NCBI GenBank assembly: GCA_023663825.1
Contig: JAMPGQ010000001.1
Span: 1 to 64,000, forward strand
Reading direction: 5' to 3'
DNA: 64,000 bases
Origin: Anaeroplasma bactoclasticum
GTDB lineage: Bacteria; Bacillota_I; Bacilli_A; Acholeplasmatales; Anaeroplasmataceae
The notes beneath the pieces were generated by a model. That model was not told the DNA's origin. It saw nothing but the letters and a program-made list of their open reading frames with translations, and searched no databases. Below are positions 22,504 to 36,400 of the stretch, piece by piece (positions within the stretch are counted from its first letter, which is position 1; every line of letters begins with the position of its first letter). Position numbers and translations under genes: made by a program.

Positions 22504-22559
22504 TAAAAGAGAATTTTCTCTTTTACTTGAAATCTAAGACTATCTTAAACGATAGTCTT
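22504..22559. terminator. Two tandem hairpins between the EAL gene and the lipoprotein gene
   Basis: AAGACTATC/GATAGTCTT (22536-22559) and the palindrome TAAAAGAGAA/TTCTCTTTTA (22504-22525) follow the EAL gene stop. On the minus strand only the second is followed by a T-rich stretch (CTCTTTTATTT). They probably end the upstream operon or cause partial read-through. No convincing promoter for the lipoprotein gene is visible in this 101-nt gap. Confidence 0.6.
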
Positions 22560-22566
22560 TTGATTT

Positions 22567-25461
22567 TTATTGTTTTTCTGCTTTAATATACTTAAACTTA
22601 TTCGCATAATCCACAGATTTATAATTAGAGTTAACAACACTCTTATGCTCTTCCATCAAATCATCAATAACCTTATTGATTCTTCGAACAGAAAGCTGTG
22701 AACGAACCATTGTATAATATGGCGTTCTTACATGTGCCTTTTTATCAGAAACATCTCTATGTGGAAATTGACGTTCTGGATATTTAGATGGATCCATAGC
22801 TAAATATACTTTAAGCTTCTTAGAGGTTAAGGATAGCTTACATACTAATTTTCTTCCAATATAGAAGCTATCATAGAAATTCGTTAGCTTATTTGAAACA
22901 TTTGAGTATTTCATAATTTCATTTTTGACAATATTAAATACCTGCTTTAATTCTGGAGAAGCCTTTTTGATTCGATCAAGGAAGGTTCTTCTAGTACGTC
23001 TATAGTAATTTAATCCATCAATGATTTCATAATAACCATCTCTTAGCTCATCCTTAGCATATGTACTCCATTCATCCTGATATTTATCACGATAGGATTG
23101 AATGATAGCCTCTAACTCTTCTAAAGAAAGCTTTGGCTTAACAAGATGTTCCATTTCCTCCTCGTCATCTTCATCTTCTTCATCATCTGCAACATCTGTT
23201 CTAGATAATGTTGAAATATCAAGATTAAGATTACGGTCTGCTTCTTCTTGTTCTCTAATTTGTTCTTGAGCATCAACGACAACAGTTTCTTCTTGTTCAT
23301 CCTCAATTTGCTTAAGCTTTAGCTCATTGATTAATGCTTCTAAGTCTTCACGCTCTTTACGTTCTTGTTCAAGACGTTCTCTTAAGGATTTTGCTTCAGC
23401 CTCAGCCTTTTCAATTCTATATCTAGAATCATCCTGACGCTTTGTTAAACGTTCAACAAGCTCATCGATATTAAATACAGGCTGATTTCTTTGATTTTCC
23501 TTTAAATCATCAATCTGCTTTTGAAGGAGTTCATAGTCTCTATCACGTGTATCTCTTACGAAATAACGATCACGACCACGATCAGCATATCTTAAATCAC
23601 TAACCTCTCTACGTAAGCGTGAGATTTCATCCTCATAATCATAGTAGTTTCTATCTCTATATTCTCTTTGAATATACGTGTTAGTAGATGTATTTTGACT
23701 AGCCTTAAGACGTTCAATTTCAAGACGTAATGCATCATATTCAGAAGAATGATCTTTTTCCTTTGGCTGATTTTGCATTCTAGCCATTTCATCACGCATA
23801 CGCTTCATTTCATCCTCATGAGCCTGACGTTTTTGTTCTTCAAGAGTAGACTGGAATTGACGGCGCATTTCTTCCATTTGACGGCGCATTTCTTCCATTT
23901 CCTTATTTTGTTCAGGTACAACAGTAGTTCCACCTAAACCAGAAATGTTGATTGAGGTACCACCATTTGGAGTTCCAAGATTTGCATCCACATTAACATC
24001 AACTGATGCATCCTTACCCTCATCCTTAGATTTCTTTTTCTTAGGAGTTTTTTCCTCCTCTTCCTCTTCTTCAAATTCAGGTAAATTGAAGTTGAATACT
24101 CGATCAGCAAATGGATCAAACATAGGAAGTGGAATTGGTTCAGAAATAACATAGCCCTGGACAATAACATCACGACAAATTTGAGCAAGCTCTGTTAATG
24201 TTTTTTCATCGGATACACCCTCACAAATTAGCTTATAATTTAGGTTTAAAAGCATACGTAAGATATTTTTAACAACGACACGATCCTTTTCTGTTGCAAG
24301 CTTATTTTTAAAGAATAGCATATCAAGCTTTACATATTCAAAGGAGCTTGTTGTTAAAGATTCCATTGAGGATAATTCCTTACCAAAATCATCCATCGCA
24401 ACAGTAAAGCCAAACTGACGTAAACGCATGATAATTTTAGAAATATATTCATAGTTTTCCATCAATGTATTTTCAGCAATTTCAAGACTGATATTCTTTG
24501 GATTGATTTGATAAGATTGAACAGTTTCCATTACTCTATTTTCAAAGTTTGGTGTCATAAATTGAACCTTTGATACGTTAACAGAAATGATAATATCACT
24601 TCTTCCTCGTTGAATCATTCTTTGAGCAAGCTCACATGCTGATTTTAGCATCAAATCATCAATATAACGAATAAAGCCAGTTTGTTCAAATAAAGGAATA
24701 AAGTCACCTGGATTAAATTTAAAGCCAGTCTCTTCATCCTCCCAACGGCAAAGAATTTCACCACCAACAACCTTACCCGTTCTTAAATCAACATTAGGCT
24801 GAATATATGGAACAAATTTATTTTGTTCAAAATCAGGTTGTTTTTCAGCATTAATCTTCTTTAACTTTTCAAAAATTGCTCTTACATCATCTGTATAATA
24901 ATATAAGTTATTTTCAACCATTTTAGAAAAGGATGTGATTACAGAAGATACATAAATAATCTCTGGGTCATCTAAAGGAGCATTTTCGTAAATACCAAAA
25001 TTTAAATAGAAATCATATTCCCCAAAGCCATCAATTGGCATTTCAACCAAACGACGTTCCATACTTTGGCACATCGCACGAATATCTTCTTTTGCCTTAT
25101 TATCAAGAATTAAGAAGAACTTATCAAATTCGATTCGACTAATCATTTCATATTTATTTAAGCCCTTAAGTAAGCATTCTGTAATTTCATACATCAATCT
25201 ACTTCTTCTAGGATAGTTCATATACAGGTAGCTTAAATTGCGCATTTCAACTACCAAAACGGTAGGATTAGAAAATTTCTTTATTTTCTTTTCTAAATAT
25301 TTTTCTAATCCTTTTTTATTGTAAATTAAGCATTCATTATCCATATATTGACTAGCTCTAGTTTGCTTTCTGTGATTATAGCGGTAAGCTATTATAGCAA
25401 TCAATAAAGCAATGACTACAACACATGGAATTATAATAGCAAGTGCTTGTTCAAGTTTCAT
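22567..25461 (-). CDS. Membrane EAL-domain protein with degenerate GGDEF, coiled coil and extra C-terminal domain, 964 aa
   Basis: A likely cyclic-di-GMP phosphodiesterase or c-di-GMP receptor at the membrane. Residues 6-27 form a transmembrane helix. Residues about 45-200 are a GGDEF-type domain whose signature is replaced by IEFDKF (110-115), so it cannot be a cyclase. Residues about 205-455 are an EAL domain keeping the expected metal and catalytic positions: E235 (EIL), N295, E327, D357/D358 (DDFG), K378, E414 and Q435. An acidic stretch, a Lys-rich patch, a long charged coiled coil (about 515-750) and a DEEDEDDEEE tract follow. Residues about 826-937 form a domain also seen, from memory, in many uncharacterised clostridial proteins (core YIGRKLVCKLSLTSKKLKVYLA, then DVSDKKA). 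It starts 16 nt after the 2,657-aa giant gene, so it is co-transcribed with surface proteins. Confidence 0.9.
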   Translation of the reverse strand: MKLEQALAIIIPCVVVIALLIAIIAYRYNHRKQTRASQYMDNECLIYNKKGLEKYLEKKIKKFSNPTVLVVEMRNLSYLYMNYPRRSRLMYEITECLLKGLNKYEMISRIEFDKFFLILDNKAKEDIRAMCQSMERRLVEMPIDGFGEYDFYLNFGIYENAPLDDPEIIYVSSVITSFSKMVENNLYYYTDDVRAIFEKLKKINAEKQPDFEQNKFVPYIQPNVDLRTGKVVGGEILCRWEDEETGFKFNPGDFIPLFEQTGFIRYIDDLMLKSACELAQRMIQRGRSDIIISVNVSKVQFMTPNFENRVMETVQSYQINPKNISLEIAENTLMENYEYISKIIMRLRQFGFTVAMDDFGKELSSMESLTTSSFEYVKLDMLFFKNKLATEKDRVVVKNILRMLLNLNYKLICEGVSDEKTLTELAQICRDVIVQGYVISEPIPLPMFDPFADRVFNFNLPEFEEEEEEEKTPKKKKSKDEGKDASVDVNVDANLGTPNGGTSINISGLGGTTVVPEQNKEMEEMRRQMEEMRRQFQSTLEEQKRQAHEDEMKRMRDEMARMQNQPKEKDHSSEYDALRLEIERLKASQNTSTNTYIQREYRDRNYYDYEDEISRLRREVSDLRYADRGRDRYFVRDTRDRDYELLQKQIDDLKENQRNQPVFNIDELVERLTKRQDDSRYRIEKAEAEAKSLRERLEQERKEREDLEALINELKLKQIEDEQEETVVVDAQEQIREQEEADRNLNLDISTLSRTDVADDEEDEDDEEEMEHLVKPKLSLEELEAIIQSYRDKYQDEWSTYAKDELRDGYYEIIDGLNYYRRTRRTFLDRIKKASPELKQVFNIVKNEIMKYSNVSNKLTNFYDSFYIGRKLVCKLSLTSKKLKVYLAMDPSKYPERQFPHRDVSDKKAHVRTPYYTMVRSQLSVRRINKVIDDLMEEHKSVVNSNYKSVDYANKFKYIKAEKQ
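23860..23901 (-). repeat. 21-bp tandem duplication in the EAL gene coiled coil
   Basis: Two identical copies of a 21-bp unit (ACGGCGCATTTCTTCCATTT plus G on the plus strand) encode the consecutive heptads MEEMRRQ MEEMRRQ. Being identical at DNA level in an otherwise diverged coding region, it looks like a recent in-frame slippage that lengthened the coiled coil by one heptad. Confidence 0.75.
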
Positions 25462-25477
25462 ATTTTCATCCTCACTT

Positions 25478-28400
25478 TTAATCTAATTCTTTCTTTCTTT
25501 TTTTATTGATTGCACCATATTTATCACGATTAACACAAATTAAGATAATGATTAAAATTATGATTGCAATAGCAATTAAAATCCATGGCATAATTTGTTG
25601 CAGAAGTTCTGGTATAGAAAATCCTGAATTTAATGCAGTAGATTTTAATTTAAATGTTACATATTCTTCATCTGAACCATCAAATATTCTTACAACAACC
25701 TCTCTACAATTTTCATCACTAATATCTGATAAAACAGTAATTTCTGGTTTCTTATTGTAGGAATTTGAGGAATCATATTGTTCAGAATCAAATACGATAT
25801 ATTTTGCAAAATCTTCAATTGCAGATGCTCTCTTATCTACTAAATCAATTTCATAGATCTTTTTCTCCTCATTTAGAGTTGTCATTGTATAGTTATAAGC
25901 ATTCTCATCAATTGTATAGGACATTGCTTCACGCTCAACATTTACTACAATTGCACGAGTTGATACTTGATCCTCAGCATAAACAAGTACTACTACTGTA
26001 TTCATACCAACTCTTAAATAAACATCACTCTCATCTGGGAAACGAGGATCTCTTGCATTAATAACCTGATAAGTTGCACCATCACCATCTGCATCTGGTA
26101 ATTTTTCAGGTGTTACAATAACATCTAAAATTTGAATACCATTAGGCACCTTATAGCTATATTCTCTAATGTCGTTATTATATTCTGTTTTGAATACTGG
26201 AATTTGAGGAATATCAATTGCAGAAACATCTGTATTTGTTGAGGATTCTCCACGACGTTTAATTGTTAAAACATATTCTGTAGTTTTGCCATCAACAGAG
26301 GTTACCGCGATTGTAAAACGATTCAATCCCTCAACTAAATCAACATTAAAGCTTCTTAATAAGCCTGTAGTCGTTATGGCTGTTGAATTGCTACAAGTTA
26401 CAATATGGTTTTCATTATCTACTGATGCATTAATTGTTGCATGTAGAGTCATATAAGTAACAATTGTAGTATATTCATAAACATCCTTATCAAAGGTTGT
26501 ATTCTTATAATTAGTATCTAATAATTTTTCACCTGAGGCTTCAAGATTAGTTAAATAAGGATTTGGATAATCTCTTTGAACTGTAATACGATAGGTATAA
26601 GCTGTACCACTTTCAGAAGTAACAACGATAACAAATGTATTCATACCCTCATTTAATAGCTGAACGCCTAAATCACCAACAACAGTTGCCTTACTATCAG
26701 CAGAGGTATACCCAATTGTTACAGATGTAGTATCATATGGTCTAGTTGCTAAAGTATATGTACCACCTTCATCCTCTGGTGAAAAGCCTGGAACTGTAAC
26801 ACCATCTGCAGTTAAATCAGATAATTTAGCATTATCAGATGGAGCATCAAATTCTAACTCAATCGTATAAACATCACCCGGAGCTCCGTTTTCAGCTTGA
26901 ACTTGAACAGTTACTGTCTTCGTTTTTCCGCGATCAGAATCAAGAATTGTAGTTGTTTTTGTTCCACTTGTAACTGTTTGATTGTCAATTAAAACAATTG
27001 ATGGAGAATATCCTGGCTTAACTACTGTAATGGTATAGTTTTGAGCACTAAATGGAATATGATAAGTACCATAGGTTGTCTTGGAAACATCAAAGTCGTT
27101 TGCCCCTAAATGCGTTTGACCAGTACCATCAGAAACTTCAATATAGGTTAATGACTTATCAGCTGATAAATCAAGCTTGCCTCTTGATAAATTAACTGGA
27201 TAATTTGTCGTACTTCCATCCTCTGCAGTGACTGTTATTGTATAATAGAAGTTATTTTCATTTGCACTACCTAAGGTTTGATTTCCAGCTCCGTTTACTT
27301 TAGCTGTTGGATCATTAGGTACTGCAACAATGTTAATTGAAGAAACTGAATCACCTAATTCCTCAATTACAAGAGGAGAATTTCCAGGTAAACTTTGATG
27401 GCTTACTGTTTTTGGTTGACCAGTTCCATCTACATAAATAACAGTTAATTCCTTTAAGGTGGAATCTGAACTTTTTGCATTACGGATAATCGTAACTGTT
27501 ACAGAAGCTGACTGAGCATTTGTAGCAGTTGGATCAAGTTCACCATATTCACTCTTAATATAAATTACAAAGTTATTTGTACCATCCTTAAGTGTTACTA
27601 TTTGATTAGAATACTTTGCACCATTAACATAAATAGTTGAATTTGCTCCACCACCTAATACTTCTAGATAGGTTTGAGACACACTATTTGCAACAGTGAT
27701 AGATAAGTGATTATTTTCATAATCAATAAAGCTTGTACCATCTACATCTAATACATCAGCACCACCAGCTAAAACTAAAGCATTAACATCATCAATATCA
27801 AAATCAGTATCGGCTGGATAAACTGTAAATGTATAAACCTTCTTCTTGCCTGTTTGACTTACAACCGTAACACGCTTAATATTAGCACGCCCTGGAAGTA
27901 AGGTTAAATCTGTAGGCATTTCAATAGTTGCATTTTCTGAAACTGTAATTTCTGGATTAAATAATATTGTATCTCTACTTACAACATATTTATAATTTGT
28001 CTCTGTAGAAGTAACAGCTAAATTGGTTAAATTAACATCAGAAGGAGATTGATAATACTCGTATACAATAATTGAATTGTCATCACTACCTGCATCTCTT
28101 GTTATTGCAATTGAATAATCTGCAGAGGCACCAGATTCTGTAGTGATTCTAACCTTATAAGTAGATGTCCCAACTGGAATGCCAGTTACATTAAAGGCAT
28201 TAGAAGGACTAGATAATACATTACCTGTAGGTTCGACGATTGTTACTGTATTTTTAGTATACATTGTATTATATCTAAAAATTGCACTATCCTGATCAAA
28301 GGCTAAATTCACCTTATATCCAGAATAAATTTCAGGAGAGAAAAGTGGATTTAATTTATTCACTTCTACTCCACCCTCAGTGACAACAACAAATAAATCA

Positions 28401-31400
28401 TCTAATGTCTTTGGAGCATCCTTAATAACATTAACATCATATTTACAAGTGGTTTTTCCATCTTGAGCTGTTGTTATTACAGTCAAAATGTTACTTCCAA
28501 TATTTAATGTATATCTAGAATCTGAAGTTGCAGGATTTGTAGTAATTGTTGTAGTTTCATTTGTAGGTACACCATCAAAATATACATCCTTAACATCACC
28601 AATATATACTTCGTATTGACCACCATTATCTCCTGGTTTAAAGCCTGTTACTGTCTTACCATTGATTGTAAATTCTTTCAAAGTAGCATTCGTATCAGCA
28701 GGATCTCTTGTGATCGTGATCGTATATTCATTGTTTTCGTCTTTAGTACTTGTTCCATCTTGAGCTGTTAAATAAACCGTATAAACAACTGTTGAATCTG
28801 GAGCAACTGGAATAGTTTTTTGATATGTTTTAGCAGTTACTGTTTCATTATCAGATCCTGATTCAATATATAGTGTTGAATTTTCACTGTTTTTAACAAA
28901 ATCTAGAATTGCAGCATCTTCTAATGAAGATAAATGTACTGTATAGGCATGTGTATTTTGAGCAAACGTTGGAGAAAGCTTATTTGTTGCAGAGGTTGAG
29001 GAATAAGCACGAATAGAGTTTAAAGACTTATCCGTATCTGGATTAGCTCTCGTGGTCCAAATTTGAATAGAATACGTTCTTGTCGTCTTCTCATCTTCTG
29101 CAGTAACTGTTATTCTATACGTTTGCGTATTTGTGGATGCTCCTAAAGATACTGTTTGAATATCGATATCGCCAGATAGCTTAGCCTTAGAATCTTCAGG
29201 TACAGCCAAAATATTTGCTTGTCCTGTAGTTGATTTCACATTTTCAACCATATAAGGTCCAACATTTTCTTTAGCAAAGTTTTGAGCTACTCCACCAATA
29301 CTATAATTTTGCTTTATCCCATCAATATATATTTCTAAAGATGAAAGGTAAGCATTATTTGAACCTGTTTGTCTATTAATTCTTATAGAATAGGTTCTTG
29401 TCTTATCTGTAATCTTTGAATCTCCAGATGCCAATTTTCCTAATTCAGAAACAACCTTAACTTGAATTGTATAATTTTGTGGATTAGGGAATTGCTTAGT
29501 ATAACCATCAGATAAATTTGCTAAGGTTGCAGAATCAAACGCTACTGTACCATTAAATCCACCCTTACGAGGAAGTAAGAATGCACTTTTTACAGGGAAT
29601 GGTACTGTAAAGGTTTGTACTCCTGCTGTAGAATCTAGATTTGGATCAAAGATAAAGGTAGATCCAGAAGTATCTAGGATATCTGTGTAGTTATCATCTG
29701 TTTCATAAAAATTAATATTATCTAATTTATTATCTGTATCTGCACAATAAATACGAATCTTGTAATTCTTCCCTGAACCTGACCCATCAACAGTTTCTTG
29801 TTCAGATTTTACATTCACCATTAACTCAACAACTTCTCCATCACCAATTGAGCATGTAAAAGGTGAGGTAGTCATATTTGAACCCTTGCTTGGTGTAATT
29901 GTAAAGGTAGCTCCTGGAGAAACCGTTAAAGCGACATCTAGGAATGCTGTACCTCTAGGTAAGTAGAATGAAAATGCGTTATCATTTTTATTAAATACAG
30001 AGTCAAAATGTACTCCTATTTGGCTAGAATCTGTAGTATTTACATTATTAATAATTAAACTTTCAATTGTCTTTTGAGTACCTGCAGTATCTCTTACTAC
30101 AGTAAAGGTATACACTTGTCCTACCTGTCCATTTTCTGCAACACCTTGTACCTTAAATACATTCTGTCCTGCAGATAAATTCACAGTTTGTTTTACCTTA
30201 AGCGTTGAATCAGGTACACCTGAAATAAATCCAGAGCCTGCACCTAAGGTCTCCTTTGCATTCTTTACAGTAACCTCTACATCTAAGCTTGTTACTGAAT
30301 ATGGTAAACGTACTGTTCCAGATGTAGGATAGGTTGTCGTTGTTTCTACAAAGTTAAATGGAATAGATGTAGAGCCATTCATAAATACTACATCTGCAAT
30401 ACCATTTTCTTTAGAACGTTCATCCTCAAAGGATGTATCAACGATGTAGGTGTCATAATTTCCATCTTGAGATTGTAAATAAATATATACCTTTTGACCA
30501 ATATCCCATAGACTATTTTGACTATATTCATTTGCAGCCACCATAATACTACTAGAATTTGTCTTAGACACGTACGCTTTTGTAGTAGAACTACTCCATG
30601 TTAATCCTAATTTATACCGAGCGCCGACTGTACTTTCCTTCAATACAAAGGAATATGTTTTTCCAGACTGGCTTGAATTCGTTGAATTAGAAATTTGAGC
30701 TGAGGAGGTAGAATGATTAAGAACCAAATTATCAATCACTCTTGTTCCATCTGGCTTATCACACTTAATTTCAATCCAGTTTTCATCACCACCAGATGTA
30801 GTATTTCCTGGACGAGTAATCTCATCAGCCTCTGATTTAATTAAAACTCTTATTCTTGTACCTTGTAAGGTTGCAGAATTAGAGATTGGTACAGTCACTA
30901 GCTGATTTGTCTTATCTACACCGTCAATATAAGCCTTCGTTGTAGATGATGTTGGTACAACCTTAAAACTTACAGACTTAGTTAAATAAGGCAATGGATT
31001 AGATGCATTACTTAAAGTAGCTGTACTTCCAGCAAGCTCTGCTAATGTATATGTACCATTTAATGTAGCACCCGTGCCATTATCATAGGTATAGGTTAAA
31101 TCAGTTACTGTAAAATCTCGATTTGCATCTGCTCCTGCTCTACTAACGGTTCCACTATAGGTAGCTGTTGAACCATCTTCTGCTGTAACAACAATTGAAA
31201 CAGGTACATTTACTGCATTTACACCACTAAATGTATAAGTTGTAGCTACGTTATTATTAATTTTAATTTGAACAGTGGATAAGCTGTTTCCAGCAGTTGC
31301 TGCAACATCAAATTTAGTATACGTGATTGGTAAAGCAGCAGCCCCACCTGGATATGTAATATTTAAATTTGGACCAGATACACTATTACAAATCGTATCA

Positions 31401-33451
31401 TTAACACCTTTATTAGCCGTAATAGAAACACTACCTAAGGAGGTATCAGTATTTGCAGCTAAACGATTCACATCAATATAGAAGGTTTGAGTAAGGCCAC
31501 TTTTAGAGGTTACTACTAAACGAATTGTATCTGTAATTGCTCCCTTAGAGCCTCCATCACTAATATTAAATGTACAATTTCCACCTAATATATTCTGTGT
31601 AGAAGCAACACTTCCTTGGAAAGCCTCAACCTTACTAATTATAGAAGTGTCAGGGAAATTAACGCGCAGTGTATACTGCTTAGATGCAAATGGTAAATTA
31701 TTAATTGTAAAGTGATCATCACCATCTGCATCACTATCATTTGATGTAAATGAAGAACCTGTTCCCCCATTCACATCAACACGTGTTGGTTTTAAATTTA
31801 CCTCAGATAATGTACAGGTATAATCCTTTGTTGTTACACCATCTTGAGCTGTAACTGTAAATTTAACCTGTTGTCCATTTGTCCAAGTACTAGGAATGCT
31901 ATAAGAAGATCCTGAAGCAATCGTAGTACCTGCTGAGGTTGCAGGATAAGAAACTTTAATCGTTTTTCCTGTTCCTGTTGCCACAGGTGTAAATGACAAA
32001 TTTGATGTTCCCTTTGGCACATAAACTGTATAGCCTACTGTCCCAGAAGAAAATGATGGACTCAAAGTAGCATTTGCACCACCTGCAGAACCACTAACGG
32101 CCAGATTATCTAAATCTGCATTCTTATCTTTAGCCTTTGGTAACTCAACTGCATACCATTTCGTTTTATTACCAGAGGATGAAATGACTTGGAAAGTAGC
32201 ATATAAGCTTTGTCCAGGAGATACACTACTCATATCAACTGAAAATGAATTTCCACTCACTGTAGCAGTTGAATTTAATGACGTAAGTGATGTACCATAA
32301 CGAACTTGTGAAGCTGAATTAAGCTTACCACTATCTTGAACTGTTACTGTAACATTAGCTGTTCCATCACTAATCTCACTACCCTTATATTGTACAGTAG
32401 AGTCACCATTTACTGTAACATTACTAGTTGCTGTTATACATGACTTATTTTCAACTGTAATATCTGTAAGACCTACATTATCTGATAAACCAGCAACTGT
32501 AATAACACATGGATCTTCTTTAAATTGATTAGGAGCGGTTTTATAAGTTACTGCAGTTGAAGTACTTAATCCATCAGTAAATGCTGTATTAGCTATCGCT
32601 TGATCACTTACTTTACCATCTTTGAAAAACTCAATACTCATACTTCCAGAAACAGTTGAAGCAATAGTAAATCCTAATGCACCAACAAATGCTGGTGAAG
32701 GCGTGCTAGTTCTCGTTCCCGGAGAAGTCCAACCAATATTTCTACCAATATTTGTTTGATCAGCACCACTCATCGTATAGCTGGCAGCTTTAAGTTCCTC
32801 ATTCACATATCTTGTAATTCCACTCACTCCACCTTGAGCATATTTTGCTAAGTCCAAAACTACAACTGCCTGACGAATTGTAGGATTATTTTGAGCAGTA
32901 GCAGTGATAGATACTACTATTTCATCTCCTGGAACTGCTTGAGTAATTTTTGGATAAAAAGACTCATCTGATATATCCTTTGGTGGGAAATAATTTTTTA
33001 AAAAGCTATAAAATTCGTTATTTGTTTCAAACGAATAAAGCTGAGCCCCAGCAGCAAGTGAATATTTCTTATTTTTTCCTGTCCCTGAAATAACATAATC
33101 TCCACCAGATTGGTTTAAACTGGTAGATAAATAAAAATCAGTACCAAGATTATCAATCAATGAATAATCTGGATTACTTGGATTACTTTCGTATCCTTGC
33201 CATGCTTCAATAAGGGTATCCACATCATATGCATCACTTACTTTCAACCCAGAATCAACTATAAACTCAACTGGATTATTTAATGCATTTTGATACTTCT
33301 GCCATGTTTCTTTTGTATAAACATCATAATGGAAGGTCACTGTATCAGTAGTTACAGCCGCCCGAACACGAAGACTCCCAAATGTAACTAAGACAGTAAG
33401 ACTCATCAAAACCAGGAGTAGTCCTATTTTTAATTTTCTAAATTTTTTCAT
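25478..33451 (-). CDS. Giant membrane-anchored surface protein with cadherin-like stalk, 2,657 aa
   Basis: A cell-surface protein. The signal peptide (LKIGLLLVLMSLTVLVTFGS, cleavage near VRA-A at 30) leads to a unique head (about 33-310) that includes a 140-residue region resembling a cohesin. About twenty cadherin-like beta-sandwich modules follow, recognised by recurring NxTLKxFTINGxTVxGFxP, YxVxxxxxxxxxxxxxTxxxxxTTxxxxPxxS and YxxxVxRDxxDTN patterns. A C-terminal transmembrane helix (about 2,617-2,641, MPWILIAIAIIILIIILICV) and a basic tail NKKRKKELD anchor it in the membrane. The ATG at 33451 is preferred over an upstream start because AGAGGT is 7 nt before it and the signal peptide begins there. 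It lies 22 nt after the 5,637-aa gene and 16 nt before the EAL gene. It is a paralogue of the 3,158-aa protein. Confidence 0.88.
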   Translation of the reverse strand: MKKFRKLKIGLLLVLMSLTVLVTFGSLRVRAAVTTDTVTFHYDVYTKETWQKYQNALNNPVEFIVDSGLKVSDAYDVDTLIEAWQGYESNPSNPDYSLIDNLGTDFYLSTSLNQSGGDYVISGTGKNKKYSLAAGAQLYSFETNNEFYSFLKNYFPPKDISDESFYPKITQAVPGDEIVVSITATAQNNPTIRQAVVVLDLAKYAQGGVSGITRYVNEELKAASYTMSGADQTNIGRNIGWTSPGTRTSTPSPAFVGALGFTIASTVSGSMSIEFFKDGKVSDQAIANTAFTDGLSTSTAVTYKTAPNQFKEDPCVITVAGLSDNVGLTDITVENKSCITATSNVTVNGDSTVQYKGSEISDGTANVTVTVQDSGKLNSASQVRYGTSLTSLNSTATVSGNSFSVDMSSVSPGQSLYATFQVISSSGNKTKWYAVELPKAKDKNADLDNLAVSGSAGGANATLSPSFSSGTVGYTVYVPKGTSNLSFTPVATGTGKTIKVSYPATSAGTTIASGSSYSIPSTWTNGQQVKFTVTAQDGVTTKDYTCTLSEVNLKPTRVDVNGGTGSSFTSNDSDADGDDHFTINNLPFASKQYTLRVNFPDTSIISKVEAFQGSVASTQNILGGNCTFNISDGGSKGAITDTIRLVVTSKSGLTQTFYIDVNRLAANTDTSLGSVSITANKGVNDTICNSVSGPNLNITYPGGAAALPITYTKFDVAATAGNSLSTVQIKINNNVATTYTFSGVNAVNVPVSIVVTAEDGSTATYSGTVSRAGADANRDFTVTDLTYTYDNGTGATLNGTYTLAELAGSTATLSNASNPLPYLTKSVSFKVVPTSSTTKAYIDGVDKTNQLVTVPISNSATLQGTRIRVLIKSEADEITRPGNTTSGGDENWIEIKCDKPDGTRVIDNLVLNHSTSSAQISNSTNSSQSGKTYSFVLKESTVGARYKLGLTWSSSTTKAYVSKTNSSSIMVAANEYSQNSLWDIGQKVYIYLQSQDGNYDTYIVDTSFEDERSKENGIADVVFMNGSTSIPFNFVETTTTYPTSGTVRLPYSVTSLDVEVTVKNAKETLGAGSGFISGVPDSTLKVKQTVNLSAGQNVFKVQGVAENGQVGQVYTFTVVRDTAGTQKTIESLIINNVNTTDSSQIGVHFDSVFNKNDNAFSFYLPRGTAFLDVALTVSPGATFTITPSKGSNMTTSPFTCSIGDGEVVELMVNVKSEQETVDGSGSGKNYKIRIYCADTDNKLDNINFYETDDNYTDILDTSGSTFIFDPNLDSTAGVQTFTVPFPVKSAFLLPRKGGFNGTVAFDSATLANLSDGYTKQFPNPQNYTIQVKVVSELGKLASGDSKITDKTRTYSIRINRQTGSNNAYLSSLEIYIDGIKQNYSIGGVAQNFAKENVGPYMVENVKSTTGQANILAVPEDSKAKLSGDIDIQTVSLGASTNTQTYRITVTAEDEKTTRTYSIQIWTTRANPDTDKSLNSIRAYSSTSATNKLSPTFAQNTHAYTVHLSSLEDAAILDFVKNSENSTLYIESGSDNETVTAKTYQKTIPVAPDSTVVYTVYLTAQDGTSTKDENNEYTITITRDPADTNATLKEFTINGKTVTGFKPGDNGGQYEVYIGDVKDVYFDGVPTNETTTITTNPATSDSRYTLNIGSNILTVITTAQDGKTTCKYDVNVIKDAPKTLDDLFVVVTEGGVEVNKLNPLFSPEIYSGYKVNLAFDQDSAIFRYNTMYTKNTVTIVEPTGNVLSSPSNAFNVTGIPVGTSTYKVRITTESGASADYSIAITRDAGSDDNSIIVYEYYQSPSDVNLTNLAVTSTETNYKYVVSRDTILFNPEITVSENATIEMPTDLTLLPGRANIKRVTVVSQTGKKKVYTFTVYPADTDFDIDDVNALVLAGGADVLDVDGTSFIDYENNHLSITVANSVSQTYLEVLGGGANSTIYVNGAKYSNQIVTLKDGTNNFVIYIKSEYGELDPTATNAQSASVTVTIIRNAKSSDSTLKELTVIYVDGTGQPKTVSHQSLPGNSPLVIEELGDSVSSINIVAVPNDPTAKVNGAGNQTLGSANENNFYYTITVTAEDGSTTNYPVNLSRGKLDLSADKSLTYIEVSDGTGQTHLGANDFDVSKTTYGTYHIPFSAQNYTITVVKPGYSPSIVLIDNQTVTSGTKTTTILDSDRGKTKTVTVQVQAENGAPGDVYTIELEFDAPSDNAKLSDLTADGVTVPGFSPEDEGGTYTLATRPYDTTSVTIGYTSADSKATVVGDLGVQLLNEGMNTFVIVVTSESGTAYTYRITVQRDYPNPYLTNLEASGEKLLDTNYKNTTFDKDVYEYTTIVTYMTLHATINASVDNENHIVTCSNSTAITTTGLLRSFNVDLVEGLNRFTIAVTSVDGKTTEYVLTIKRRGESSTNTDVSAIDIPQIPVFKTEYNNDIREYSYKVPNGIQILDVIVTPEKLPDADGDGATYQVINARDPRFPDESDVYLRVGMNTVVVLVYAEDQVSTRAIVVNVEREAMSYTIDENAYNYTMTTLNEEKKIYEIDLVDKRASAIEDFAKYIVFDSEQYDSSNSYNKKPEITVLSDISDENCREVVVRIFDGSDEEYVTFKLKSTALNSGFSIPELLQQIMPWILIAIAIIILIIILICVNRDKYGAINKKRKKELD
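32537..32959 (-). other. Candidate cohesin-like domain in the head of the 2,657-aa protein
   Basis: Residues about 165-305 read as a single all-beta domain of cohesin length: YPKITQAVPGDEIVVSITAT at the start (compare the PGDTVTVPV opening of cohesins), then QAVVVLDLAKY, and near the end FVGALGFTIASTVSGSMSIE (compare the L-ATIxFKVK...SG strand pair), closing with TAVTYKTA. This is visual pattern matching to the type I cohesin order of elements; other carbohydrate-binding-module-like jelly rolls would look similar. Confidence 0.4.
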
Positions 33452-33473
33452 ATTTATACCTCTTTCTATCAGC

Positions 33474-36400
33474 CTACTCTGCTGGAGCATCTATTTCAGA
33501 TGCCCCACCATAAGTTGCTGGATAAGTTCCATCAAATGTATTGAAATCAACTGTAGGATCCTCAGAAATGTAAGTAACGTAGCCTTGAAGTTCTACAATT
33601 GTTGCATCTGAGAAGAATCCTATTTCTCTATTTGTAACACCACTAAAATAATAGTATGCTTCTACATCTGTAAATGTCATACCTTCTGAAACAAAGAATT
33701 GCGCCTCAGGTATGTCTGCATCTGAAATGTAACCATCACTATTTAAATCACCATATAAAATGCCTTGTACTGTATCTATAATTTGACCATCATCGTCAAG
33801 TAAGGAAACAGAGAAGCCTGAACCAAATGCCAAAATTGAATATGAATCTTTTTCAATTTCATTTCCTTGATGATCTAATACGATAAGTTTTTCTGGATCA
33901 TTTTTAAATTGTGCTATGATTTCACTAATAGGTGTGTCTTGGTGGAGATGTCCTAAATATAATCCATCTTCACCTGCTGCTAAATGTACAACAGAGCCAT
34001 CTTCTACAAAAGTCGTAGCGCCTTCTTCATAATTAGCAGTAATGAATTGAATTAATGCATCATCCTTCAATTCCAATACATCTGGTTTAGAAGCTACAAT
34101 TGTAAAATATTGAGTAGTTGGAGCAAAATAATAGATATCATTTGCTTTACTACTAATCAAAATTTCAGCCTTGCTATCTTCTGTTGTTACATCAATATTG
34201 TTTTGATATTCTATATCATAATGCTTTGGATCTAACTCTGTTAAAATATTTGTTGCAAGCTCTCGCAAATATACTGTAACAGGAGGTTCGATTGGGGTTC
34301 CTGTATGAATCCAAATTTCTTCATATTTGAATACTAAATCATAGTCTTCATTTGGTAAATTCTTTGGATTGATTGGGAAGGTTTGAATGATATCGTCAGT
34401 TCCATTGTTCTCCCAAGAATCATCGCCAGGATTCTTAAGCTTTATTTTAACCTCAATTTCATGCTTCCCATCCTCATCTACCTTACTATCGTCAATATCC
34501 ATAGTATATGGTAAATCAGCTGGTACCCAACCTGGAATTGTATCATCATATTTCCATAATTCACCTTGATCATCTATTAGATAAGTATGATATGGATCAT
34601 CTACTAGGTCAGGATTATCCTCAGCATCTTTTTTACGAATGTACTTATTTCCTTCCGTATCCTCTAAGACGATTGGATTTCCTGCTTCGTAGTCCTCATC
34701 TGGTGGTAATAATACAATATCCTTAATTACATTTTGAGTGATAACAAAGTCTTCAGCCATATTTGTAATTACATAATTTGGATCAGATGTAGTTGCTATT
34801 ACATCCCATTTTCCTTGATTAATGTAGCCAGTTGCTGGTTGAATATCTGCATTTACTCTATTACCACTAATATCAAGATAATATGCATTAGGGAGTAGTG
34901 GATTATCCACATCTCCTGTGTATTTTTGAGTTAAATTTTCCCAAGTTACTGTTACTGGTCGAGGATTAATTCTAATAGCTTGCTTAAATTCCTCACCAGC
35001 ATGCTCTAACGCATCATCTGAAATTTTTAAAACAAAGACATATCTTCCTGCATCTACAGGATTAGATGGCATTGCTTTACTTGGATCTAAATTATCCATA
35101 TTATGAATGTAGTAATCCCATTCATAATATTTAATATCATTTGTTACATTAGGATCTGTAGTAAAGAGTGGATCTTCAAATGGAATGCCATCATATACCT
35201 TGTTTTGATCATACTCAATATACGGAGCCTTATCTGCATCATTTGGTCCTGGATAATCTGGATCTGTTGGATCTGTAATAGGATTATCAGGATCGTCTGG
35301 GTTATTTGGATCTAGCCCAGGTGGATAAACTGGATTGTCTGGATCAACAATAACCAATCTAGCCTCCTTAATTAAGGTTTCATAATTTGGTGCAGAGATT
35401 CTTACACGAACATTATAAATACCGATTGCAGTTCTTTGAATTGCATCTAAAGGATAGAATGTATAATTTCCATTAGATAAAACGGCATATTCTGTAATTA
35501 CCTCATTTTCAAAATCAGCATAGACATATGGATCTACTGAGCCATCTGTCTTCTTTGTACCATTGATACGGGCTGCCATAGAAATTGGATTGCCTGTATA
35601 GAATACTGCCTTATCCTTGAAATCCACATCAAATTGACGCTCAACGATTTCTACATTCGCAAGTAAATTAACAACATAATTTTCCTTTGTAGGACCATTG
35701 ACCTCATTGCCCTCTGCATCATAAACTCTTAAATAGTTATTCTGCCAGTGGAAGCCTGGTTCAACACCTAAGGTTGTATAGGTTCCAACCATTGGTGAGG
35801 TTGTCATTAATATACCATTGTTAGAGGATTCTGTTAATCTTAAGGTATGACCTCTAACAAGATTTTCTACTTCCTCGTCCTTTACAGTATAGAACCATGA
35901 TAGATTGTCAAATTGCTTTGCTTGATTTGAAATATGAACTGTAATTGTACGTGGTGTAATCTCAAATGGTTCAAAGGAATGAACAACGCTGTTGTAATTT
36001 TGATTTGCAGGGAATTCAACATCAAGACGATATGTTCCAGCATCAATTGGATTATAATTTAGCTTAGATGCACTTCCATCTGAATTAATCTTATAATATG
36101 TATAAACACAGCTTGTTGTTGGACTACCATTATAGCTAATCGCAGGATTTGCTATAGGAGCACCATCATATATTTTGCCTAAACGTAAGTTCAAATCATC
36201 GAATTGAACCTCAGGTTCAGTACGTGTAATTGTAATTCCTGCCGTCTTTTCAAATACGGTTTCATTGGTTAAGGTATTTTTTATACGTACAGAAATTTGA
36301 TCTTGACCAACATCCATTCTTTGTGGCTTTCTAGTAGACCATGAGCTACTTTGACCTAATACCCAGTATTCAATAGAGAAATTCTCTGGGTCATCTACCA

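Follow-up and report, generated by a model that had tools for sequence, protein, structure and literature searches.

Control of large adhesins by c-di-GMP is best known from LapD/LapG, a system that needs a periplasm, and LapD is defined by an extracytoplasmic output domain and a HAMP that lie between two membrane helices. LapD is a c-di-GMP receptor that controls a large adhesin via the protease LapG (PMC3032553). Trigger phosphodiesterases, as the concept is presented in PMC5052742, are EAL proteins that act through a macromolecular partner, the active EAL domain controlling a bound target as it binds and degrades c-di-GMP, and CC_3396 of C. crescentus is described as a GGDEF-EAL protein in which the degenerate GGDEF domain senses GTP (PMC12943098).

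The window, by which we mean the whole stretch of 64,000 nucleotides of Anaeroplasma bactoclasticum DNA that was analysed, carries a row of very long surface-protein genes on its minus strand. The stop of one of these genes (25478-33490, encoding a protein that we call here the giant) is followed, after 16 nt, by the gene of a GGDEF-EAL protein with a separate C-terminal domain (CTD), which we name EAL-CTD. The features of the pair are as follows.

25478..33490, minus strand: giant surface protein, 2670 aa, with six cadherin-like domains (PF12733) and a C-terminal TM helix
25481..25537, minus strand: cytoplasmic tail of the giant, basic and conserved, CVNRDKYGAINKKRKKELD
25462..25477, minus strand: intergenic gap of 16 nt with a GAGG-like ribosome-binding site (from sequence)
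22567..25461, minus strand: gene of the EAL-CTD protein, 964 aa (ORF list, domain search, orthologs)
25351..25455, minus strand: N-terminal membrane helix region, aa 3-37 (sequence; helix in the AlphaFold model)
24898..25344, minus strand: degenerate GGDEF domain, aa 40-188, with EFDKF at aa 111-115 (Pfam, alignment, model)
24127..24837, minus strand: EAL domain, aa 209-445, catalytic residues present, loop 6 DDFGKELSS
23230..23910, minus strand: broken coiled-coil/charged region, aa 518-744 (model helices)
23140..23199, minus strand: acidic stretch, aa 755-774, directly ahead of the CTD
22612..22989, minus strand: CTD, aa 825-950, with a predicted YdhG/DUF1801-like fold

Like LapD, EAL-CTD is a membrane-bound protein with a degenerate GGDEF domain and an EAL domain, tied to a very large surface protein, and the LapD structures 3pjw and 6pwk are among its fold matches. 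Unlike LapD, it has neither output domain nor HAMP and only one N-terminal TM helix (by Pfam and the model), it retains the EAL residues, and it carries an extra coiled coil and the CTD; moreover, the surface protein is itself anchored in the membrane and encoded next door. With no output domain, no HAMP and a score far below the cut-off of the NCBIfam LapD equivalog (80.6 bits vs 1020), we rejected EAL-CTD as a member of the LapD family, and no match to the LapG protease was found among the 10 window proteins scanned. With trigger phosphodiesterases such as E. coli PdeR and PdeL it shares the retained residues and, possibly, action through a partner, but for those proteins the known target is either a transcription factor or a promoter region, and not a surface protein. 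CC_3396 offers the parallel of a lost GGDEF motif beside a residue-complete EAL domain; it differs in that loop 6 is altered in EAL-CTD, and GTP sensing is described for CC_3396 and not for EAL-CTD. Ties between a c-di-GMP protein and a large surface protein are known in kind, and the undescribed CTD is the most novel part of the locus. A literature search, which covered mostly papers outside subscription, returned, among the papers listed, no description of this architecture and nothing relevant on Anaeroplasma and c-di-GMP, on c-di-GMP and GGDEF in Mollicutes, or on an EAL domain together with YjbR.

Architecture of the EAL-CTD protein

An initial, sequence-only reading of the locus had proposed a membrane helix, a GGDEF domain without its motif, an EAL domain with all its catalytic residues and a separate C-terminal domain, in a protein starting 16 nt after a giant surface gene, and all of these elements were confirmed by ORF, Pfam, alignment and model. 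From its N-terminus, EAL-CTD consists of the membrane helix, the GGDEF fold, the EAL domain, a charged linker, helices at 518-744, the acidic stretch and the CTD. The AlphaFold model (13 orthologs) has the TM helix at 3-37, the GGDEF fold at 49-188 and the EAL domain at 216-452, followed in its C-terminal part by the helices 518-744, a helix at 780-822 and the CTD. The proposed coiled coil of about 250 residues was borne out in part: charged helices exist, but in the model low-confidence stretches interrupt helices 518-744, which do not make one continuous rod. An SMC-like low-complexity match extends over aa 513-803, and the dual-domain structures that best match the GGDEF-EAL region are MorA and PA0575. 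According to the positive-inside rule, basic residues are expected after a TM helix; the sequence RYNHRKQTR directly follows the N-terminal helix, so that the remainder of EAL-CTD should be cytoplasmic. Conservation across 14 orthologs (counting the window protein), the most distant of them about 36-40% identical, excludes a chance architecture.

The EAL-CTD and giant genes are likely co-transcribed. Scans of the window for promoters and terminators stayed near chance level, and no RNA element, such as a c-di-GMP riboswitch, matched Rfam above gathering scores in the window. A hairpin at 22536-22559, just 3' of the EAL-CTD gene, is terminator-like on the plus strand only and gives no evidence for an operon end. 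Within the linker, otherwise variable, the motif TSINISGLGG (23929-23958, minus strand, aa 502-511) is kept in the orthologs of the window's genus.

Pairing of EAL-CTD with a giant across genomes

We searched for orthologs with short conserved peptides in one genome per species, a scan of 84,980 species that can miss distant members, and obtained 13 orthologs, the other 41 loci being ordinary EAL proteins. The 13 come from MAGs labelled Anaeroplasmataceae, Acholeplasmatales, Mollicutes, Anaeroplasma, Clostridium or Bacilli. In all 14 cases (13 orthologs plus the window) a giant lies directly upstream on the same strand, at a distance of -4 to 21 nt, and its C-terminus is a TM helix followed by a CVNRDKYGAINKKRKK-like tail. 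Beyond the pair the neighbours vary: within the window's genus most members have a lipoprotein there, and elsewhere the genes are unrelated.

Of the 55 genomes available for the family, profile searches found both the tail and an EAL-CTD ortholog in 13, neither in 42 and only one of the two in none, and the two genes are adjacent in 13/13 of the genomes that carry them. Strong tail hits reached E values up to 7e-10 and orthologs stood below 1e-180, the next best protein being at 1e-70. Tail hits with E values of 3e-4 to 0.01 (eight genomes have only such hits; three have them in addition to a strong one) were excluded from the 13; we took them as noise since most are partial and several run across stops or lie in short frames. 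The pair is patchily present across four genera, and the genomes that carry it are related, so that the 13 co-occurrences are not 13 independent events. The suggested link to a surface gene is strongly supported by the 14/14 adjacency and the 13/42/0 distribution, and the opposite case of an EAL-CTD gene unlinked in relatives was rejected, as all 14 are linked and no unlinked relative was found. One pair was observed outside the order (L090/L203/L253, genome G366), in 1/28 genomes of its family. Completeness of that MAG is put at 83% and contamination at 6%, and the pair is possibly the result of transfer or of contamination.

The tail of the giant is itself conserved. Over 11 non-duplicate giants, mean pairwise identity is 67% for the 16-residue tail, 50% for the TM helix and 26% for the ectodomain (362 residues compared), and none of the 346 ectodomain windows of 16 residues matches the identity of the tail, which is the best-conserved part within the C-terminal 420 residues of the giant. 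Positive charge after the TM helix would be expected, but fixed VN, K and G positions would not. On the side of EAL-CTD, the most acidic window of the protein falls shortly before the CTD in 13/14 orthologs, and the sequences suggest that the tail may contact this acidic stretch. The basic tails and the C-terminal domain had been put forward as possible contacts, and they gain support from the conservation of the tail and from fusions of the CTD to other exported proteins (see below). A tie to the assembly or stability of the surface proteins, suggested in the same reading, would be a candidate function of the pair.

An arrangement of this kind could also reflect neighbourhood without interaction, in which the two proteins are merely co-expressed and EAL-CTD is an ordinary membrane phosphodiesterase working on the global c-di-GMP pool. 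GGDEF-EAL proteins are indeed common in the relatives, and the evidence for a partnership is one of sequence and gene context. We regard this explanation as improbable, in view of the exact co-occurrence and adjacency of two genes whose flanking genes differ, of the conserved tail and of the CTD fusions. A functional partnership between EAL-CTD and the giant is, on the contrary, highly probable.

GGDEF and EAL domains and the c-di-GMP network of the genome

The EAL domain is a clear Pfam match (PF00563, E=3.4e-51, 174.3 bits vs a cut-off of 31.3) and the GGDEF domain (PF00990, E=0.0021, 18.3 bits) lies below its cut-off of 23.8. The window protein reads R-I-E-F-D-K-F, with EFDKF where GGDEF belongs, and the GG(D/E)EF active-site motif is lost in 14/14 orthologs. 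In order to examine the EAL domain we placed its residues via alignments to solved EAL structures. The nine positions that, from the EAL literature, we take to be catalytic, metal or loop-supporting residues (E235, N295, E327, E330, D357, D358, K378, E414 and Q435) are all present in the window protein, and the set is complete in 13/14 aligned orthologs. The exception, L086 (9956-12925, genome G006), has E327 changed to D and D358 to N. The tail of the giant beside L086 is the most divergent of the tails, and the pairing is kept there despite an active site that is not intact.

Loop 6 of active EAL enzymes reads DFG(T/A)GYSS (PMC2994820, PMC12943098), and its second glycine has been modelled as hydrogen-bonding with the loop-holding glutamate (PMC2994820). 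The loop of the window protein, DDFGKELSS, deviates from this sequence; among the 14 orthologs 12 read DFGKE, L085 reads DFGKD and L086 reads NFGAE, so that E stands in place of the second glycine in 13 and D in one. In other EAL proteins sampled from this bacterial family the usual sequence is DFG(S/T)G, in a comparison whose overall counts are biased, as many of its 110 pooled EAL hits are duplicates and some loci (L092-L132) were fetched by patterns that contain DFG[KA][ED]. Binding of c-di-GMP by EAL-CTD is likely, while hydrolysis by its EAL domain is uncertain given the altered loop 6 and the degenerate ortholog L086. The same uncertainty, with loop 6 altered in all 14 orthologs, applies to the breakdown of c-di-GMP that had been suggested from the sequence.

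In the source genome (2.06 Mb, 96% complete) canonical GGDEF and HD-GYP motifs occur together in a single protein, a response-regulator-like protein on contig C87 (L001 622-3435), and the possibility that the genome has no cyclase was consequently rejected. The remaining GGDEF/EAL proteins (contigs C29, C14 and C50; E up to 0.1) have degenerate motifs, and the window protein is the only EAL of the genome with the full residue set.

These data bear on the direction of signalling. The giant might sense contact or a ligand outside, its tail switching the EAL domain as a local phosphodiesterase that passes the state of the surface on to the small c-di-GMP network of the cell. Retention of the catalytic residues in 13/14 orthologs, the position of EAL-CTD as sole EAL of the genome with a full catalytic set, and its near lack of an extracellular part, by which it could sense the outside only via the giant, would fit such an outside-in route; the change of loop 6 in 14/14 orthologs does not, nor does L086, where the pairing persists minus two catalytic residues and hydrolysis is therefore not needed for pairing. 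We consider this route rather unlikely. Inside-out signalling is the direction towards which we lean slightly, and c-di-GMP is probably the regulatory ligand of EAL-CTD.

The C-terminal domain

A search for further proteins with the same C-terminal domain established it as a real family: a profile built from 24 sequences detects relatives (E up to 1e-6) in 80 of 395 genomes sampled across the class. No Pfam or NCBIfam family matches the CTD above cut-off; the best Pfam match, YjbR at E=0.0015, appeared in 1/24 and 1/45 members scanned and not for the window domain, and when the CTD profile was run against PDB sequences, all E values were 0.5 or worse. Judged by its sequences, the CTD is an undescribed domain family. 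Its AlphaFold model (mean pLDDT 82) is closest to YdhG/DUF1801 structures, namely 2oc6 (Z 8.2, 3.1 A over 105 residues) and 9t2w (Z 8.1, likewise over 105), and then to YjbR and frataxins. Foldseek matches were weak (best E=0.02). Profile comparison by hhalign aligned the CTD with DUF1801 over the same span at E=0.0014 with a probability of only 17% (reversed control E=0.12), so that by this method homology to DUF1801 is weakly supported and homology to YjbR is not. We therefore call the CTD YdhG-like in predicted fold, with no claim of common ancestry; it resembles YdhG/DUF1801 (frataxin-like) and YjbR in predicted fold but differs from them as a separate sequence family found mostly in membrane proteins.

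We then considered the context of the domain in 47 proteins from 43 loci (40 hand-picked hits favouring long ORFs plus three from the own genome), a set whose proportions are not those of a survey. At least one TM helix is predicted, by simple hydropathy, in 40 of the 47, and seven have none. In five (L187, L189, L190, L191 and L195) the CTD stands behind the last TM helix of a large exported protein, where the positive-inside rule places it in the cytoplasm; List_Bact repeat, fn3, Big_11 or DUF1542 domains are present in the first four, and L195 has no Pfam match. Three single-TM proteins with 1-3 CTDs and no EAL domain (L054 2965-4449, from the own genome, L194 5723-7927 and L188 5715-6413) overlap the 3' end of a gene for a large protein with a C-terminal TM helix, a second type of pair in a similar style. 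Among these partners only that of L194 has a Pfam surface domain above cut-off (MBG_2). Many of the 47 have 4-11 TM helices and no obvious surface partner and a few are soluble, so that surface proteins are not the only carriers of the CTD. Soluble proteins that combine the CTD with a starch-binding domain (CBM_20) were also seen, above the Pfam cut-off in L208 (5897-6721) and just under it in L056 (4162-5070). A Ribosomal_L27A/L15 match (PF00828) above cut-off occurs at the end of the CTD proteins L190 (150-5051), L202 (6002-8281) and L210 (5838-7109).

The repeated occurrence of the CTD beside or fused to exported proteins, together with its YdhG-like predicted fold and low-scoring matches to the type III secretion chaperones SycT and SpcS (Z 4.0-4.3), would also agree with a role of the CTD and coiled coil as an aid in secretion, folding or anchoring of a long exported protein, a chaperone or scaffold for which the GGDEF-EAL part is a structural platform only. 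Fold matches at Z about 4 are nonspecific, however, and such a role would give no reason for 13/14 orthologs to retain the EAL catalytic residues; we attach little probability to it.

A possible c-di-GMP-responsive partner of the giant

We propose that the EAL-CTD product may be a dedicated cytoplasmic partner of the cadherin-like giant encoded just upstream. Both proteins would sit in the same membrane, each with a single anchoring helix, and at its inner face EAL-CTD would hold the basic tail of the giant via the acidic stretch and the CTD, and/or via the helices themselves. The degenerate GGDEF-EAL pair would bind c-di-GMP, with slow hydrolysis possible given the altered loop 6, and c-di-GMP occupancy would change the grip on the tail and hence the state of the giant outside the cell (retention, clustering or adhesion). 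Such an action would be like that of a trigger phosphodiesterase, or like the inside-out control by LapD minus the extracytoplasmic output domain. For this c-di-GMP-responsive partnership, in which contact, ligand binding and the direction of signalling are all inferred, we see the chances as evenly balanced. In its favour are the 14/14 adjacency, the identical phyletic sets and the conserved tail, with further support from the catalytic residues of 13/14 orthologs, the CTD fusions and the canonical GGDEF protein of the genome; against it stand the lost glycine of loop 6, the changed residues of L086, the presence of the CTD on non-surface proteins, the basic charge expected of any such tail, in which it is the degree of conservation that stands out, and the relatedness of the genomes. 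More tentatively, the CTD might be a general cytoplasmic adaptor for envelope proteins in mollicute-like Bacilli, EAL-CTD making one class of giants responsive to c-di-GMP via the tail.

As to the host, three proteins of the genome pass the penicillin-binding transpeptidase cut-off; a cell wall is therefore plausible, and we did not assume a wall-less organism. In a survey of the group, 40-60% of Anaeroplasmataceae genomes are reported to have peptidoglycan genes, and related lineages to have lost sortases (PMC10868615). The host is a gut bacterium and a single-membrane relative of mollicutes. The constant pairing of a giant with a c-di-GMP protein, where the genome's c-di-GMP network is very small, offers a case open to direct test of how such bacteria anchor and control their surface proteins. 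With it comes an undescribed domain family, found in one in five of the class genomes sampled. If the proposal is true, an intracellular second messenger would control a surface protein here without help from either a periplasmic protease or a sortase, and the pairing and the CTD together point to a previously unrecognized route by which a signal inside the cell may reach its surface.
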